From Bacteroidaceae bacterium (GTDB taxonomy: Bacteria > Bacteroidota > Bacteroidia > Bacteroidales > Barnesiellaceae_A), in the NCBI GenBank assembly GCA_017410245.1, contig JAFQRE010000017.1, forward strand, positions 131,296-195,295: DNA of 64,000 nt. The letters run 5' to 3'. The translations under genes and the position numbers were made by a program. Within the stretch, counting starts at the first letter, position 1; every line of letters starts with the position of its first letter. Positions 23,121 through 30,006 of this stretch are shown in pieces. The notes under the pieces are model-generated. The model made no database searches, was not told the DNA's origin, and saw only the letters and a list, made by a program, of their open reading frames with translations.

Positions 23121-23600
23121 ATGGATACAATCAGCACAACAACCCGAACCGTACGTCAAGCCATAGAGTGGCTTGAGAAGATGGGAATAGAGGTTAAGGC
23201 TCAACCCTTGACAACCGATATGTATGACTTCAAGTATGACGATGTGTATATGTTCATGCCTTCTATTACGCCCAACGATACTATCAATATCAATTGTCTC
23301 TTTGAGGTGCAAGGATCGACTGAGCAGAAACGCAAGGAGGTCTTTGATATAGTGCGTAGTATAGTGTCGAAAGACTTGAATGACTATGACATTGTGTATG
23401 CGCAAGATGGATTGGCTTGGGTGGGACAAGAATGGGTGATGCCCCGAGGGCGTTACAAGTTGCGTCGTTATCAGCTCAAGAAGATGCTTGAGGAGATGAA
23501 GGCTGCCTACTCGAGAGTGTTCTTTATAAGTCTTGTAGCATCGGCTGTCTGCGATAAGTATCGAGAGCTATTAGACAAGGCATCGTTTCCCGCACCTTAA
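23121..23600 (+). CDS. soluble protein of unknown function
   Basis: A 159-residue protein without signal or membrane segment. The first half looks alpha/beta (TRTVRQAIEWLEKMGIEVKAQ, YDFKYDDVYMFMPSI, INCLFEVQGSTEQKRKEVFDIV), the second helical and basic (RGRYKLRRYQLKKMLEEMKAAY). The pattern of a helix, then several strands and an acidic DYDIVYAQDG, might be a small ligand- or partner-binding fold; nothing more can be said. It may share a transcript with the microprotein upstream and is followed by a strong terminator. Confidence 0.75.
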   Translation: MDTISTTTRTVRQAIEWLEKMGIEVKAQPLTTDMYDFKYDDVYMFMPSITPNDTININCLFEVQGSTEQKRKEVFDIVRSIVSKDLNDYDIVYAQDGLAWVGQEWVMPRGRYKLRRYQLKKMLEEMKAAYSRVFFISLVASAVCDKYRELLDKASFPAP

Positions 23601-23655: not shown

Positions 23656-23704
23656 ATGAAAAAACTGCCTTAAAGACAATTGAGTTTAAGGCAGTTTTTT
23701 TCAT
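23656..23704. terminator. bidirectional terminator between convergent genes
   Basis: A 19-bp stem (23656-23674 with 23685-23704, one bulge) with A-tract on one side and T-tract on the other ends both the 23121 gene and the minus-strand FKBP gene. Confidence 0.85.
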
Positions 23705-23727: not shown

Positions 23728-26235
23728 TTATACTATTTCAATAAGCTCAACGTCGAATATGATGGTTGCGCGAGCCGGAACATAGCCGTTCCCATCACCA
23801 AAGGCAAGCTCGGCGGGAATGTACAAGATGTAGTGTGCGCCTTCTTTCATTAGTTGCATTCCTTCGCTCCACCCCGGTATGGTATTGGTTAGGTTAAACC
23901 GAACAGCCTCCTTTCCTTTATTGCTGTCTATCACAGTTCCATCTGTAAGCGAGCAGGTGTAGTTACACAATACCTCGCTATCGGCATCGGGACTCTTGCC
24001 TTTGCCTTTGCTTATCACTTCATACTGCAGTCCGCTTGGCAGTGTCTTAACCTCCTTTCGGGTGGCATTCTCTTTTAGATACATTTTGCCCTCGTCTATA
24101 GCCAAGAATTTGCTGCTTACCCAAGCCTCATTGCCATAGTAGCTGATGCGGGCAAAACCGTTTCTTATCTCATATACTTCCACTTCTTCGTTATATTTAA
24201 GGCCACCCAATTGTTTGGCCGATGAAGAGGGCTCTTGGCGCACGATTACTCCCGACTGAGCTGTGCAGTAGTAGGTTGTTGTATCATCATTTACTACATA
24301 TTCGACAGCCGAGGTAGGTTCATCGTCCGATGAGAATATTGAGAAAAAGGCTCCTATGGCCGGTAAGATATTGAGCGCAATTACAATAAATGCTGTTATG
24401 AGGAATGACCATGCACTGCTGAAGATTAATTGCAGTACCCATAGTGCAATTGTGGTGATATAGCTCATCACAACCGTGGCAAGACTAGCTAAAGCAAATC
24501 CTATAATTCCTACTATAATGGCCCATATAATGCCCTCCTCAATCAATGTAGCTACAACGGCGACGACAAGCACAATGTAAATGAGGATAGTTATCAAGCC
24601 CGAGATGTTTTCTTCGTGGTCTTCAAACCACTCGCCTATATCCCTAATCTTGTTGTCGAAGCGTGTCCATAGTGAGTCGTCATAACTGTGAGTGTGAGTG
24701 CTTGTTTGTTGCTTGCGCTTGAACACCGTAGGCTTGCCTATCTGTACATACGAGGTACTGAGTACTTTGCCCTTATAGCTGATGATTACTTTTATTTTTT
24801 CCGGCTCGGTATAATAGTCGCCTTCGCTACGACCCCAACCGCTCAGTGTGTATTGTCCGGGACCATTGATTGTCACATCGCTATCGGTGCGCGATGTTTT
24901 GCGATTTTCATACTGATACTCTATGTCGAGCGTTATACTGCCTCGGAAGTTGTTGGAAACAACGATGCGGGGTTTCAGGTAATGAATGCCGGTGGGTATG
25001 GGTGAGCCGAAATTGACCTGTATGTTGCCATCGTAGTCGGTGGCTCCGAATATAACATCAGTTATGACAGGATATTGTGCACTATTGGGGTCGGGCTGTA
25101 TAGTTGCACGGCCTTGCCATATCTTCTTGCCTTTCCACTTGAAGGTATATTCGACATAGCTATAGTGCGAGTACGAATCTCCACTCTTGCTACCCCAGCC
25201 GGTAACTTGGTATTTACCCTTGCCTTTGAACTCAATCTCATCGTTGTAGCTGGCTGTTTGGCCATCGGGATACTTGATAATTATCTCTATCTCCTCGGTC
25301 CCATAATAGTCGCTCGACACGATGAGTAGTGGCACAATGTATTGGGTATTGGTGTACAATACCTTACTGTAATCTTTTATTATATCATTATCGTATGTGG
25401 TATCGGCAAATATCACATCGCTGATGAAGATTTGGCTATCGTGTTGTTGAGGAATGGGTGTTTGTTGTTGCTTCTTCTTCTGCGGTATAGGGTCGCGACG
25501 AGGTGGCTGGTGTTTCTTGTAAAACTCGGTAATGCTCTTCTTGAATAAGTCGAACGTCTCCTTGTTGTCATACACCTTGCGAGCTACTGCGCACAAGTTC
25601 TTGCTGTGTTCTATAATCTCACGATTGGACGAGTGTAGCTTGTGTGATGCAACCAGCACCTTAATCAACTCATCAGCCTCCTCCTTCATCATGGGGCTGT
25701 AGGCCGGTTTTTGCCAGAAACTATTCAACTGCTCTATAGCAGTCATTTCGGCAATATCGAGTAGCGGGGTTATAGCCTCGCTCTTGAGGAATTGTATGGC
25801 TTTGCTCCACTTCTCGATGTTTATCATCATCATAGCCTCGTTGTGTTGAGGCGTGGGAGCTGTTTGAGGGGTTGGTGTTGTCTTGGGTGTAGGTACAGGG
25901 GTAGGTTTGCGAGTGGGGGTCCAGCCCATTTCTTTGCGAAATTGGTCAAACGTCGCGCTGTCTTTGGTATAGAATGTTTGTGCAATACCTCTCAAGGTCT
26001 TGCTCTTTTCTATAATTTCGCGATTGGACGAGTGTAGCTTGTCGCACTGTTTGAGTAGCTCGATGCGCTTTTCGCATGCACTTTTGTCAAATTCGTTGTT
26101 CCTCCAATAGTCGCACAAAAAGACAATGGCTTCCTGCTCGTCCGATGCCAGTTGCTTCTTTATATCGGGCGAAGCAAAGAAGTCGCAAGCCTTTTTCCAC
26201 TCGGCAATTTTTTGTAGGAGAAGTGTCTTATCCAT
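23728..26235 (-). CDS. large membrane protein: duplicated helical module, two beta-sandwich repeats, membrane segments, SH3b, FKBP
   Basis: An 835-residue protein with unusual architecture. Residues 1-103 and 140-240 are two copies of a helical module, both with LHSSNREIIE (67-76 and 200-209) followed by a helix with SK-x-L; a Pro/Thr-rich linker joins them. Residues about 269-380 and 390-500 are two beta-sandwich repeats (each starting I-[ST]-DVIF and containing TGWGSKSGD or LSGWGRSEGD). Three or four membrane segments lie at about 545-635. An SH3b-like domain follows (655-712, GVIVRQEPSSSAKQLG, AWVSSKFL) and a C-terminal FKBP prolyl isomerase (about 728-835, with IPGWSEGMQLMKEG and YIPAELAFGDG). 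There is no N-terminal signal peptide. It is the third gene after the GrpE-like and Hsp70 genes, so a folding or assembly role is likely. No HPD (J-domain) motif is present. Confidence 0.85.
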   Translation of the reverse strand: MDKTLLLQKIAEWKKACDFFASPDIKKQLASDEQEAIVFLCDYWRNNEFDKSACEKRIELLKQCDKLHSSNREIIEKSKTLRGIAQTFYTKDSATFDQFRKEMGWTPTRKPTPVPTPKTTPTPQTAPTPQHNEAMMMINIEKWSKAIQFLKSEAITPLLDIAEMTAIEQLNSFWQKPAYSPMMKEEADELIKVLVASHKLHSSNREIIEHSKNLCAVARKVYDNKETFDLFKKSITEFYKKHQPPRRDPIPQKKKQQQTPIPQQHDSQIFISDVIFADTTYDNDIIKDYSKVLYTNTQYIVPLLIVSSDYYGTEEIEIIIKYPDGQTASYNDEIEFKGKGKYQVTGWGSKSGDSYSHYSYVEYTFKWKGKKIWQGRATIQPDPNSAQYPVITDVIFGATDYDGNIQVNFGSPIPTGIHYLKPRIVVSNNFRGSITLDIEYQYENRKTSRTDSDVTINGPGQYTLSGWGRSEGDYYTEPEKIKVIISYKGKVLSTSYVQIGKPTVFKRKQQTSTHTHSYDDSLWTRFDNKIRDIGEWFEDHEENISGLITILIYIVLVVAVVATLIEEGIIWAIIVGIIGFALASLATVVMSYITTIALWVLQLIFSSAWSFLITAFIVIALNILPAIGAFFSIFSSDDEPTSAVEYVVNDDTTTYYCTAQSGVIVRQEPSSSAKQLGGLKYNEEVEVYEIRNGFARISYYGNEAWVSSKFLAIDEGKMYLKENATRKEVKTLPSGLQYEVISKGKGKSPDADSEVLCNYTCSLTDGTVIDSNKGKEAVRFNLTNTIPGWSEGMQLMKEGAHYILYIPAELAFGDGNGYVPARATIIFDVELIEIV

Positions 26236-26255: not shown

Positions 26256-26286
26256 GAGGTTGTGCCCTGTTGTAAGACACAACCTC
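26256..26286 (-). terminator. hairpin between the Hsp70 and FKBP genes
   Basis: A perfect 9-bp stem (26278-26286 with 26256-26264), 13-nt loop, then ATTTTTG on the minus strand. It could partly end transcription and lower expression of the membrane protein relative to the chaperone. Confidence 0.55.
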
Positions 26287-26318: not shown

Positions 26319-27911
26319 TTATACGGTGGCGTTCGCGATGAAGTTTTGCGATTTTTTCAGTTCTTCTTCGTTCTTCACGCCGGCAACTTTGAGTTTGAAG
26401 TCAATCACATCGTTCTCGCGTGTGGCATTGACACTCAAGATACCTTCGTTGTCGATACTGAATGTTACTTGTATCTCGGTACCTTTGGGGTGATTACCGG
26501 TAATCTTCAACTCTTGTATCTCTTCGGTAGCCAAGTTACAGAAGCGGTCTTCTACGGTGCGATCTTTCTCCTCATCGGTGAAGTCGCTCTCATAGATGGG
26601 CAGTGTAACACCGGTTTGACCATCGCGAACTGTCTCGAATGTGCGAGTGCGAGATACAGGAAGTGTTGAGTTGGCAAAAATCATGTTACCTACTTGGTTG
26701 TCGATAAGTCCGAGTCCATAGGTCTTGCTGGTTACATTGACAATGCGAGTACGACCCGATGTGCCGAGAGGCATGGGACGAGGACCTTCGCCTTCGTCGG
26801 CTTTTTTGAGTGCTATATCGTATGCCTCGTTCATGGCGAAGATTGCAGCTCCCTTGGCAACACACTCATCGGGGTCGGTGATGTGTGTGGGAAGGCCAAA
26901 CTCTGCTTCTACGCGCTCTTTGATTTGAGGCATTTTACTGCTACCACCCACGAGAATAATCTCATCGATAGTATTATAGCCTTTTTCCTTGGCAATGTCA
27001 ATAATCTTGCGAGTGGCATCGATGGTCTCATTCAAGCGATCTTCGGTAATGGCATTGAATGTTTCGCGGGGAAGGTCGAAATTGACCGATTTGCCTTCGT
27101 AAGAGAAGTTGATTTTGGCTGTTTGACGAGCTGTAAGGTTTTTCTTCCAACCCTCGGCACTGAGCAACAAGTCATACTTGGCATTGGGCGAGAGTGTCTC
27201 AAAGTCGTAAGAAGTGCCGTTTTGTTGGTTGAAGGTGTTGAGTACATATTTAGCCAACTCGGTATCCCAATCGACACCACCCAAGTGGTGGTCTCCACCG
27301 GTGGCAATTACCTTAATGGCACCACCATTTACAACGATAATGGTAACATCGAATGTACCGCCACCCAAGTCGTAAACGAGAATTGTGCGACGCTCGTCAA
27401 CCTTCAAGCCGTATGAGATAGCCGCAGCTGTAGGCTCATTGATGATAGCCAATACGTTGAGGCCGGCACTGATACCTGCTTGTTTGGTTTGCAAACGCTC
27501 TTTGTTACCAAAGTATGCAGGGCAAGTGATAACAACATCTTTGATGGGCTCGGGGTTTTCGCCCATGTCGTTGGCATCTTTTACAAGTTTCTTAAGAATG
27601 AGTGCCGAAATCTCTACAGGGTCGCAGTGGAATGGAGTTGTATTCTTGGTCTTGTCGAAAGCCTCATCGTTACCAATCTGACGTTTGATGAACGATACAG
27701 TCTTTTCAGGCTCTATAGGCAACATGTTTTTAGCCTCTTTACCAACAATCATATTGCTTTCCGACTCGAAGTAAACTACCGATGGAGTGGTTGAGTCGCC
27801 TTCGAAGTTGCGTAGTACGACTGCTTGATCATATTTGTCAACTTGTGAAATACAACTGTATGTTGTTCCCAAGTCAATGCCGTAAACGGCTCTGCTTTTA
27901 TCGTCTGCCAT
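26319..27911 (-). CDS. Hsp70 chaperone without the C-terminal lid
   Basis: A 530-residue Hsp70. The nucleotide-binding domain is complete: GIDLGTTYSC (11-20), NEPTAAA (158-164), DLGGGTFD (181-188), VGGSSKMPQI (321-330). The beta substrate-binding domain spans about 395-512 (TLPVSRTRTFETVRDGQTGV, GNHPKGTEIQVTFSIDNEGILSVNA). The protein then ends within 20 residues, so the alpha-helical lid and tail of DnaK (about 100 residues more) are absent. The interdomain linker, VLLLDV in DnaK, is replaced by a run reading TRIVNVTSKTYGLGL. It follows its GrpE-like gene by 27 nt and is clearly not the housekeeping DnaK. It probably uses the encoded GrpE-like protein as exchange factor; substrate unknown. 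Confidence 0.92.
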   Translation of the reverse strand: MADDKSRAVYGIDLGTTYSCISQVDKYDQAVVLRNFEGDSTTPSVVYFESESNMIVGKEAKNMLPIEPEKTVSFIKRQIGNDEAFDKTKNTTPFHCDPVEISALILKKLVKDANDMGENPEPIKDVVITCPAYFGNKERLQTKQAGISAGLNVLAIINEPTAAAISYGLKVDERRTILVYDLGGGTFDVTIIVVNGGAIKVIATGGDHHLGGVDWDTELAKYVLNTFNQQNGTSYDFETLSPNAKYDLLLSAEGWKKNLTARQTAKINFSYEGKSVNFDLPRETFNAITEDRLNETIDATRKIIDIAKEKGYNTIDEIILVGGSSKMPQIKERVEAEFGLPTHITDPDECVAKGAAIFAMNEAYDIALKKADEGEGPRPMPLGTSGRTRIVNVTSKTYGLGLIDNQVGNMIFANSTLPVSRTRTFETVRDGQTGVTLPIYESDFTDEEKDRTVEDRFCNLATEEIQELKITGNHPKGTEIQVTFSIDNEGILSVNATRENDVIDFKLKVAGVKNEEELKKSQNFIANATV

Positions 27912-27938: not shown

Positions 27939-28730
27939 TTATTCTGTTGGTTCTTCCCATTTGTAGCAAGCTACACGTGCCGGACGTATGATTTTTTGTG
28001 TGTCTACATCGCGGAATCCACCATAGTATGTTTTGGCTATACGGCGGTTTTGCTCGGGTGTAGTAGCGGGTATGACGTTGAAAGGTTTGTGTGCTTTGGG
28101 GTTAAATTCTTCATTCTCCTCGGGGGTGAAGTACTCTACACCGAAGTCGTTGTACACTTGGTTGCTCAGAGCATCTACCGCACTCTTAAATTCATTTAGC
28201 AAGTTTTTGTACAACTCAGTCATATCGGTGGCTGTGTTGTCGAGTTGGTCGAAGTGTGAGTATGTGTCGAAGAAGCGACGGTGCAGGTCGAGAAGGGCTA
28301 CCAAGTAGGGTTGCGTTACCTTGGCAAAGAAGTCTCCTTTGTAGCGTTCCAATTCTTTGTGCATAGCACGCATATTCTCGTCTTGTATGTCACGATGGCC
28401 TATCAAGGTTTTTAGTTCATCTTGTTGCGCTTTCAGTTCGCCTATTGATGCAGTCAATGCTTCTAACGCCTTCGTGTAGTCAATAGACTGTGCATCGGGG
28501 ACAATTGAGGGCTTAGGCTCCTGCTCGCATTCGCATTGGGGTGTAGGTGTTTCTTGGGATTGCTCACCTTGTGACTGAGCCTCCAATTGTGCAATGCGCT
28601 CTTTCAAGCGTACTATCTCTTGGTCTCGTTGAGCAATCTCTTGTTTCTGTTGTTCATAGTCGGCCTTGATTATTTCAAGAGCTTGTTCAATGCTCTTTCG
28701 GTCGCTCTCTTGATTGCTAAAAATACTCAT
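27939..28730 (-). CDS. GrpE-like nucleotide exchange factor with a long coiled-coil extension
   Basis: A 263-residue protein (GrpE is usually about 190). It opens with a coiled coil (about residues 8-55), an acidic Pro/Cys-containing linker (ETPTPQCECEQEPKP), a second coiled coil (about 78-130), a four-helix-bundle-like middle, and a recognisable GrpE beta wing: FNPKAHKPFNVIPATTPEQN, then IRPARVACYK, where GrpE has DPxxHEAV and RPAxVxV. It should dimerise and release ADP from the adjacent Hsp70. The ATG at 28730 is chosen; an ATG 27 nt upstream is the alternative. A full-consensus promoter stands upstream. Confidence 0.85.
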   Translation of the reverse strand: MSIFSNQESDRKSIEQALEIIKADYEQQKQEIAQRDQEIVRLKERIAQLEAQSQGEQSQETPTPQCECEQEPKPSIVPDAQSIDYTKALEALTASIGELKAQQDELKTLIGHRDIQDENMRAMHKELERYKGDFFAKVTQPYLVALLDLHRRFFDTYSHFDQLDNTATDMTELYKNLLNEFKSAVDALSNQVYNDFGVEYFTPEENEEFNPKAHKPFNVIPATTPEQNRRIAKTYYGGFRDVDTQKIIRPARVACYKWEEPTE

Positions 28731-28814
28731 GATATATTCTATTATTGGTGATTTCATTGTTCGGAACTACTTGTTTCTGCTTGAATATCGAGTGTATAAA
28801 TACTCATGCTATTA

Positions 28815-28845: not shown

Positions 28846-28925
28846 GGAATGTTCAAATTTTTTATGCATTCACTCTATCGCACTCAATGTTGCAAAGTCT
28901 ATTGCATCTTTGCAATAAAAAAGAT

Positions 28926-29162
28926 ATGATGAAGGTAGATAAAATGACAATACAACTATGGGTTGCATGCATAATGTGTATGGCCGGATTGGTTTTGATA
29001 TTTTCGGGGTTCTGGGTAGCTCCAGAAGGGGAGATACACCAGAGCGTGTTGGTCGCTTTTGGCGAGGTGGCAACTTTTGCCGGTGCTTTGTTTGGGGTTG
29101 ATTACAGTTATCGCATGCGTGGTAGAGGTGCGAATGATGATAAACAGGGAGGCGTGTCATGA
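28926..29162 (+). CDS. phage-type holin
   Basis: A 78-residue protein with two membrane segments (about residues 9-29 and 42-61) joined by a short loop APEGEIHQSVLVAFGEVATF and a basic/polar tail (YSYRMRGRGANDDKQ). The GEIHxSVLVAFGE loop is what I recall from holins of Bacteroides phages. It would form the inner-membrane lesion that releases the endolysin. The ATG at 28926 or 28929 is the likely start. Its last 4 nt overlap the M15 peptidase start, as in compact phage lysis cassettes. It is divergent from the chaperone operon. Confidence 0.7.
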   Translation: MMKVDKMTIQLWVACIMCMAGLVLIFSGFWVAPEGEIHQSVLVAFGEVATFAGALFGVDYSYRMRGRGANDDKQGGVS

Positions 29163-29566
29163 AGTATTTTGTATTGGCCGAACTGACAGATAGCGCCGTA
29201 GCTCGTCGGCTGCATATCGATAATACTCCTACACCCCAAGTGACAGAAAACCTGATAGCTTTGGTTGAGAATATTCTTGACCCGGCTCGCGAACTGATGG
29301 GTTGCCCGGTGCGTGTTAATAGCGGGTATAGGTGTGAGTTGCTCAATAGGTGTGTAGGTGGTGTGCCCGATAGTCAGCATCTGCAAGGACAAGCTGCCGA
29401 TGTGACAACAACCTCGTTGAGTGAAAATAAAAGGTTATTTGAGGTGTTGCTTTCGCTCCCATTTGACCAGTTGATATGGGAACGTGGCAATGAGCATGGG
29501 CCGGCTTGGATACATGTGAGTTTTTGTAAAGATGGTGATAACAGGAAGGAGGTGCTGAGATTATGA
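29159..29566 (+). CDS. M15-family peptidase (endolysin type)
   Basis: A 135-residue zinc peptidase cleaving peptidoglycan peptide bonds. Ligands and catalytic residues are visible: SQHLQGQAADV (His74, Asp81), Glu108 in DQLIWE, and His119 in AWIHVSF. The N-terminal part contains LMGCPVRVNSGYRCELLNR, typical of the small D-Ala-D-Ala carboxypeptidase-like phage enzymes. There is no signal peptide, which fits an enzyme released through the upstream holin. It overlaps both neighbours by 4 nt. Confidence 0.88.
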   Translation: MKYFVLAELTDSAVARRLHIDNTPTPQVTENLIALVENILDPARELMGCPVRVNSGYRCELLNRCVGGVPDSQHLQGQAADVTTTSLSENKRLFEVLLSLPFDQLIWERGNEHGPAWIHVSFCKDGDNRKEVLRL

Positions 29567-30006
29567 GACGAATTGTTTGGGTGCCGGTTGTATGTGCTGT
29601 AGCGATTGCGTTGTCTTGCACCAAAACGGTATATGTGCCTATACAACAGCATCGTAGTTGTGTAGCTCAGTTGCGCGATACGATGGTTGCAATTGTTGCC
29701 GATGGCGAGCAGTATGACAATAAAACAATCGATACTATTAGTTGTATTTATGGTAATAGAGCAATGAGTTGTGCCACTGTGTCGCAAGGCGTTTTGTCGC
29801 ATTCGCTCACAATATATCCACAACGCGATACCATAGACATGCAACTGCGCGATACCTATATTATCGACTCGGTGCCCTACATAGTTGCACCACCCGATAA
29901 TGAAGGACGGTCGAAGCCGCATTTTTCATACTGGCCTATAGTTGCATGGTCGCTACTTGTCATGGTATTGTGTATTGTAGTGTTGCTACGCAGTGTGAGA
30001 AATTGA
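29563..30006 (+). CDS. spanin-like lipoprotein with C-terminal membrane anchor
   Basis: A 147-residue protein with a lipobox-like signal (MRRIVWVPVVCAVAIALSC, Cys at about 19), a beta-rich, Thr/Asp-containing middle (SHSLTIYPQRDTIDMQLRDTYIIDSVPYIV) and a C-terminal membrane segment (about 124-143, IVAWSLLVMVLCIVVLL). A lipidated N-terminus combined with an inner-membrane C-terminus is the layout of a unimolecular spanin, and the gene is coupled to holin and endolysin; this is inference from layout, not sequence similarity. It may equally be a lysis-cassette accessory of unknown function. Confidence 0.6.
   Translation: MRRIVWVPVVCAVAIALSCTKTVYVPIQQHRSCVAQLRDTMVAIVADGEQYDNKTIDTISCIYGNRAMSCATVSQGVLSHSLTIYPQRDTIDMQLRDTYIIDSVPYIVAPPDNEGRSKPHFSYWPIVAWSLLVMVLCIVVLLRSVRN

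Follow-up and report, generated by a model that had tools for sequence, protein, structure and literature searches.

A three-gene cassette of Bacteroidales encodes a lidless Hsp70, a GrpE-like protein and a membrane protein with an exchangeable C-terminal end

Kaur et al. 2020 described systems in which Hsp70 and GrpE accompany FnIII-repeat proteins that carry a fused DnaJ or TPR and often also transmembrane segments and outer domains (PMC7159879). The modules of these systems are mostly acquired in an inactive form, and their FnIII repeats evolve rapidly (PMC7159879). A different arrangement is that of HscC, a second, specialised Hsp70 that the nearby-encoded, tail-anchored J-domain partners DjlB and DjlC recruit to the inner membrane; HscC has a shortened lid and no GrpE signature (PMC8215388). 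In DnaK itself, R167 binds the aspartate of the J-domain HPD motif, and D393 is required for linker stimulation of the ATPase (PMC8215388).

Here we describe a locus that recalls both systems. The window, i.e. the whole 64,000-nucleotide stretch of DNA that was analysed, carries in this order on its minus strand a gene for a GrpE-like protein (gene 1, 27939..28757, 272 aa), one for a lidless Hsp70 of 530 residues (gene 2, 26319..27911) and one for a membrane protein of 835 aa (gene 3, 23728..26235), the last supported by the list of open reading frames, its translation and its orthologues. All cassette features listed below lie on the same strand. The first-pass annotation had dealt with gene 3; its account lacked the operon with the lidless Hsp70 and GrpE-like genes as well as the swapping of C-terminal domains, and these two features bear most on the function of gene 3.

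Like the GAP1-N2 systems, the cassette places Hsp70 and GrpE beside an FnIII/Ig-like repeat protein with a membrane link and variable ends (PMC7159879), although the repeats match Ig/FnIII folds only structurally. In contrast to those systems, which occur in actinobacteria and firmicutes, it is found in Bacteroidales, has mostly folding-type end domains and two novel helical modules, and is devoid of GAP1-N2, DO-GTPase and J-domain. Neither GAP1-N2 (PF20013) nor DO-GTPase2 (PF19993) was found anywhere in the genome by a search that gave the control matches in C. glutamicum. With HscC the cassette shares a second, specialised Hsp70 that is presumably held at the inner membrane by a partner encoded nearby. 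However, its Hsp70 has no lid at all and comes with a GrpE-like gene, and its membrane partner has a large, probably periplasmic part in place of the J-domains that HscC uses (PMC8215388). By the tests run, the cassette shows features of both systems and is a member of neither. A published description of this gene set was not found in the open-access papers searched.

Gene 1 encodes a coiled coil and a GrpE head (PF01025, 35.5 bits against a cut-off of 25.8) and matches the GrpE structure 3a6m over the head. The product of gene 2 scores 343.9 bits with PF00012 (cut-off 20.6), but the profile is matched only up to position 501 of 599, and the protein stops where the helical lid of DnaK starts. 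The ATPase motifs are retained and the SBD-alpha lid is absent. Scores with the NCBIfam equivalogs stay below the cut-offs both for DnaK (320.6 against 822.55 bits) and for HscA (318.6 against 708.55 bits). The genome's own ordinary DnaK (G000:C40) and the gene 2 product share a nucleotide-binding domain and SBD-beta, and are about a third identical; gene 2 differs from it in the missing lid, an altered linker, replaced J-contact residues and insertions both ahead of the linker and in SBD-beta.

An alignment of operon Hsp70 copies with this DnaK, which has R167 and D393, revealed A or G at position 167 and N at position 393 (DnaK numbering) in ten out of ten copies. All ten therefore differ from canonical J-dependent Hsp70s in the helical lid and in both residues. 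Elsewhere, the genome encodes one other full-length Hsp70 (the DnaK), one J-domain protein (G000:C37) and one ordinary GrpE; a third HSP70 match is, judging from its position, MreB-like. There is no J-domain gene near the cassette, and the sole one in the genome lies far away. Judged from sequence, the operon Hsp70 has a GrpE-like gene of its own, no J-domain partner nearby and part of the J contact gone, and it appears to have lost the usual contact with J-domains. The housekeeping DnaJ might still serve it.

The product of gene 3 begins with two helical modules of five helices each, at residues 1-104 (25924..26235) and 132-239 (25519..25842), delimited by module alignment, profile and structure model. 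Two Ig/FnIII-like sandwiches follow at residues 269-379 (25099..25431) and 390-500 (24736..25068), for which a structure search was used in addition. In the model, an amphipathic helix (residues 522-539, 24619..24672) precedes the membrane part. Behind the membrane part come an SH3b domain (residues 661-711, 24103..24255; PF08239, 7.5e-14) and an FKBP domain with an FKBP_N piece (residues 713-834, 23734..24099; PF00254, 8.4e-18; PF01346, 1.3e-6), both probably periplasmic and the latter exchangeable. With 52.1 bits for SH3_3 (Pfam cut-off 27) and 64.9 bits for FKBP_C (cut-off 21.1), the presence of both domains on one chain, as annotated before, was confirmed. The Pfam search gave no DnaJ match in gene 3, i.e. 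no J-domain with its HPD motif.

Eight of the nine genomes that represent the genus, its own included, encode orthologues of the same layout with 55-60% identity; one of these is split across two contigs of a draft assembly. Since seven other species have the same layout, gene 3 is not a misjoin of separate genes, which had been named beforehand as an outcome that would overturn the annotation. Mean identity is highest in the helical modules (72-74%) and lower in the FKBP (50%) and membrane (42%) parts; the beta modules are among the better-conserved parts. A match in the genome G034 was discarded as an unrelated kinase carrying an SH3 domain.

Both internal duplications proposed for gene 3 hold up: the helical modules are 35% identical (E = 3e-17), and the beta modules 30% (E = 2e-19). 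The motif KLHSSNREIIE is present twice, at residues 66-76 and 199-209. The near-identity of DNA that had been noticed around 25611 and 26011 is real, but it is local, being a single stretch of 50 nt with 90% identity (25594-25643 and 25993-26042) confined to this motif. It is no sign of a recent duplication, and a recent doubling of the whole module was ruled out. According to profile searches, every complete close relative has two helical modules, and close relatives have two beta modules; a distant Muribaculaceae protein, L055, has one helical and three beta modules. As both doublings are also found in relatives from other families, the duplications are old, and module copy number changes among family members. 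Synonymous codons agree between the two motif copies at 11 of 13 positions in the window and at 12 of 13 in L050, which is not so in most relatives; between motif copies of different species, the agreement is about half. Local gene conversion in the window and in L050 is possible.

The folds were examined with AlphaFold models, both built on 10-11 alignment rows. Residues 1-240 were modelled as two five-helix bundles (pLDDT 85), and residues 262-660 as two sandwiches plus the membrane helices. The structure search proposed for residues 1-103 and 269-380 gave different answers for the two kinds of module. For the helical modules, neither Foldseek nor VIA found a PDB match over the helical-bundle background (best E 0.85 and best Z 8.0, the latter to a designed bundle; module 1 was barely covered). 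A PDB profile match to Tako8 was set aside, as it spans 32 residues. The beta modules resemble tandem Ig/FnIII-type domains (Foldseek E about 1e-6), a generic fold, and the likeness is structural only.

A profile search with the helical module alone, also proposed earlier, gave matches only within the gene 3 family, whereas beta modules were also seen in other, unrelated proteins of Bacteroidales. One such case is an array of four consecutive genes (L073:7654-12706, minus strand). Another is a coiled-coil membrane protein near vWA-like and NTPase genes (L075:7030-8409, minus strand). A third, judged by eye, is a protein with a signal-peptide-like start that lies near kinase, FHA and PP2C-like frames (L074:7105-8175, minus strand).

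The first-pass annotation had singled out membrane topology as the key question and had reported no signal peptide. The hydropathy scan bears this out, since it finds no hydrophobic stretch ahead of residue 541. Both the scan and the model predict exactly three membrane helices, at residues 541-567 (24535..24615), 569-604 (24424..24531; a long one) and 608-634 (24334..24414), and not four. Three segments were likewise seen in 11 out of 11 close members, and one, preceded by KKKKKTR, in L055. Among gene 3 relatives, the loop between the first two helices is acidic and without K or R, the stretch ahead of the third contains, in most members, K/R but not D/E, and the stretch following it is acidic. 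The missing signal peptide, the 540 residues ahead of the first helix and the count of three together place residues 1-540, with all four modules, probably in the cytosol, and SH3b with the C-terminal domain (here FKBP) most likely in the periplasm. Known homologues of TonB_C and AhpC/TSA thioredoxin-like domains act outside the cytosol, and the replacement or extension of the C-terminal domain by such domains gives this orientation independent support. The likeness of the FKBP to the FkpA/Mip types also agrees with it.

The C-terminal end is exchangeable within the family. FKBP stands there alone in the window and in L021-L024, and is followed by a thioredoxin-like domain of the AhpC/TSA type in three species (L025, 8.5e-17; L026; L027). 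There is no domain beyond SH3b in L050 and L051; FKBP is replaced by TonB_C (2e-21) in L052, known from one contig only; and L055 has yet another tail. The TlpA/AhpC-type domains behind FKBP lie at L025:4807-5220, L026:3557-4000 and L027:5869-6300. The L052 gene (7980-10601, plus strand), a single case, adjoins a lidless Hsp70 and encodes a charged linker ahead of its TonB_C, which makes its product a TonB-like protein linked to an Hsp70.

The window FKBP is nearest to the FkpA/Mip types. Like the FkpA/FklB/Mip-type FKBPs and BamJ, it combines FKBP_C with an FKBP_N piece, and for it, too, a periplasmic location is predicted. Those, however, are stand-alone proteins, whereas here the FKBP is the tail of a protein with three membrane segments. 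Its scores stay below the NCBIfam cut-offs for FkpA (91.5 against 215 bits), FklB (93 against 198 bits) and BamJ (63.1 against 100 bits). Most of its catalytic residues are retained, with equivalents of Y26, D37, F46, I56, W59 and F99 (FKBP12 numbering). Across the family, W59 is kept in 3 of 8 and D37 in 7 of 8, and the thioredoxin CxxC is intact in one of three (WCGPC in L025; WAGPC and WAAPC in L026 and L027). Given these losses, and the absence of a helper domain in L050 and L051, folding is not a general function of the outer end; binding or holding may matter more there than catalysis.

Of 41 genomes, the same 8 carry all three genes, which are jointly absent from G007 and 32 other genera. 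Outside the genus, gene 3 was matched in these 41 genomes only through its widespread FKBP or SH3 part. Neither the operon Hsp70 nor a full-length gene 3 relative turned up in further genera when larger samples of the order were searched. A scan of genome contigs did find relatives, most from ruminant gut, in MAGs that bear the labels Bacteroidaceae, Rikenellaceae/Alistipes and Muribaculaceae; these host names are MAG labels. Distant MAGs labelled as other families (L050-L052) have the same three-gene order at different loci, and L055 encodes a gene 3-type protein with no adjoining Hsp70. Within the genus, the cassette occupies one fixed locus beside housekeeping genes.

The operon Hsp70 diverges by 9-16% between families and by 2-14% within the genus; for the ordinary DnaK the values are 18-22% and, among cassette carriers, 2-4%. 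Horizontal spread of the cassette is suggested by these figures, but we do not claim it, because the genus stays together in the gene 3 tree (99/99) and because saturation is possible. Neither a phage nor a plasmid source was retained: phages match only the FKBP, the helical modules are encoded on no viral contig, and the Hsp70 matches on plasmids are general DnaK below 60%. A named defence system was also rejected, the PADLOC matches being only coiled-coil likenesses of the GrpE-like protein. Throughout the genus, the cassette is flanked by a divergent group of genes that resembles a phage lysis set and has a fixed position in the chromosome, namely a holin-like small membrane protein, a peptidase M15_3 and a small lipoprotein-like gene (28887-30006, plus strand). 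Just behind gene 3, a plus-strand gene (23121-23600) encodes a 159-aa protein with no family match and no relative in the loci of neighbouring species.

At the junction of the Hsp70 gene and gene 3 there is a terminator-like hairpin conserved in the genus (26256..26286), with the stem GAGGTTGTGTC. It reads GAGGTTGTGTC-loop-GACACAACCTC followed by ATTTTT, and in the window one base is changed, giving a G-U pair. The stem, 10-11 nt long, is invariant in all eight species of the genus, whereas its loop and the remainder of the gap have diverged. No second copy of it was found elsewhere in the genus genomes that were searched, and Rfam gave no credible match; other families have unrelated hairpins at this junction. 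The hairpin resembles an internal terminator, which would hold expression of gene 3 below that of the Hsp70. The constancy of the stem sequence, which goes beyond pairing, suggests a bound factor. Behind gene 3, an inverted repeat with 21-nt arms (90% complementary) and T/A runs (23659..23700) is the likely operon terminator.

We propose, with middling confidence, that the gene 3 product serves a dedicated Hsp70 system as its membrane platform. Its helical (and beta) modules would tether the lidless Hsp70 and its GrpE to the inner face of the membrane, in the recruiting role that a J-domain has elsewhere. At the membrane, ATP turnover by the Hsp70 would then serve to handle proteins or to alter the platform's state. 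The outer end, kept near the wall by SH3b, would offer exported proteins a folding or envelope helper (FKBP, thioredoxin-like or TonB_C). We infer that gene 3 supplies the missing Hsp70 partner from the gene order, the strict co-occurrence, the cytosolic placement of the modules and the helical modules being the best conserved part. Against the proposal speaks L055, where the platform has no Hsp70 gene beside it, and so do the possible service of the housekeeping DnaJ to the operon Hsp70 and the eroded or missing helper domains at the outer end. The periplasm is without ATP, and we know of no Hsp70 in the periplasm itself. A fuller version, in which a J-domain-independent Hsp70 on a trans-membrane adaptor lets cytosolic ATP power action on the periplasm by way of exchangeable outer domains (a prolyl isomerase, a thioredoxin-like domain or even a TonB C-terminal domain), is a speculation that we consider improbable as it stands.

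A less probable but serious alternative is that the cassette is a membrane-linked conflict (defence-like) system with the GAP1-N2 Hsp70 layout minus its GTPase. Here Hsp70 and GrpE would act as an NTP-driven switch, the Ig/FnIII-like repeats as a sensor, and the swappable, often inactive C-terminal module as an effector. The trio of genes is that of Kaur et al. (PMC7159879), with repeats that are FnIII/Ig-like in structure, and the patchy distribution with possible horizontal spread also agrees. We keep this alternative because swapped end domains with partly lost active sites fit it. However, the genome lacks GAP1-N2 and DO-GTPase2, by which those systems are defined, the PADLOC matches are coiled coils only, the genus carries the cassette at a single fixed housekeeping locus, and the end domains are of folding or envelope types and not toxins. 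Moreover, the beta modules rank among the better-conserved parts, unlike the FnIII repeats in Kaur et al., which evolve rapidly (PMC7159879).

More doubtful is an envelope stress sensor, in which the outer domains would bind misfolded protein or wall and an inward signal would set Hsp70/GrpE activity, with no folding machine involved. An outer part of SH3b and FKBP-like domains with catalysis eroded in several species, together with conserved cytosolic modules, would suit such a sensor, but the operon has no kinase, phosphatase, protease or transcription factor. Finally, four membrane segments, which would make SH3b and FKBP cytosolic and the whole protein a membrane-anchored cytosolic co-chaperone, are very improbable: the predicted second helix is indeed long (36 residues) and residues 593-607 are fairly hydrophobic, but all close relatives have three segments and L055 one, TonB_C takes the same end in L052, and SH3b and TlpA-like domains are mostly located outside the cytosol.

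With gene 3 read as a platform, the cassette connects a dedicated Hsp70/GrpE pair in the cytosol with a membrane protein whose probably periplasmic folding or envelope domain is swappable. This suggests a chaperone system working across the inner membrane and makes such work directly testable. The operon Hsp70 would also be an example of an Hsp70 that apparently does without the usual J-domain contact.
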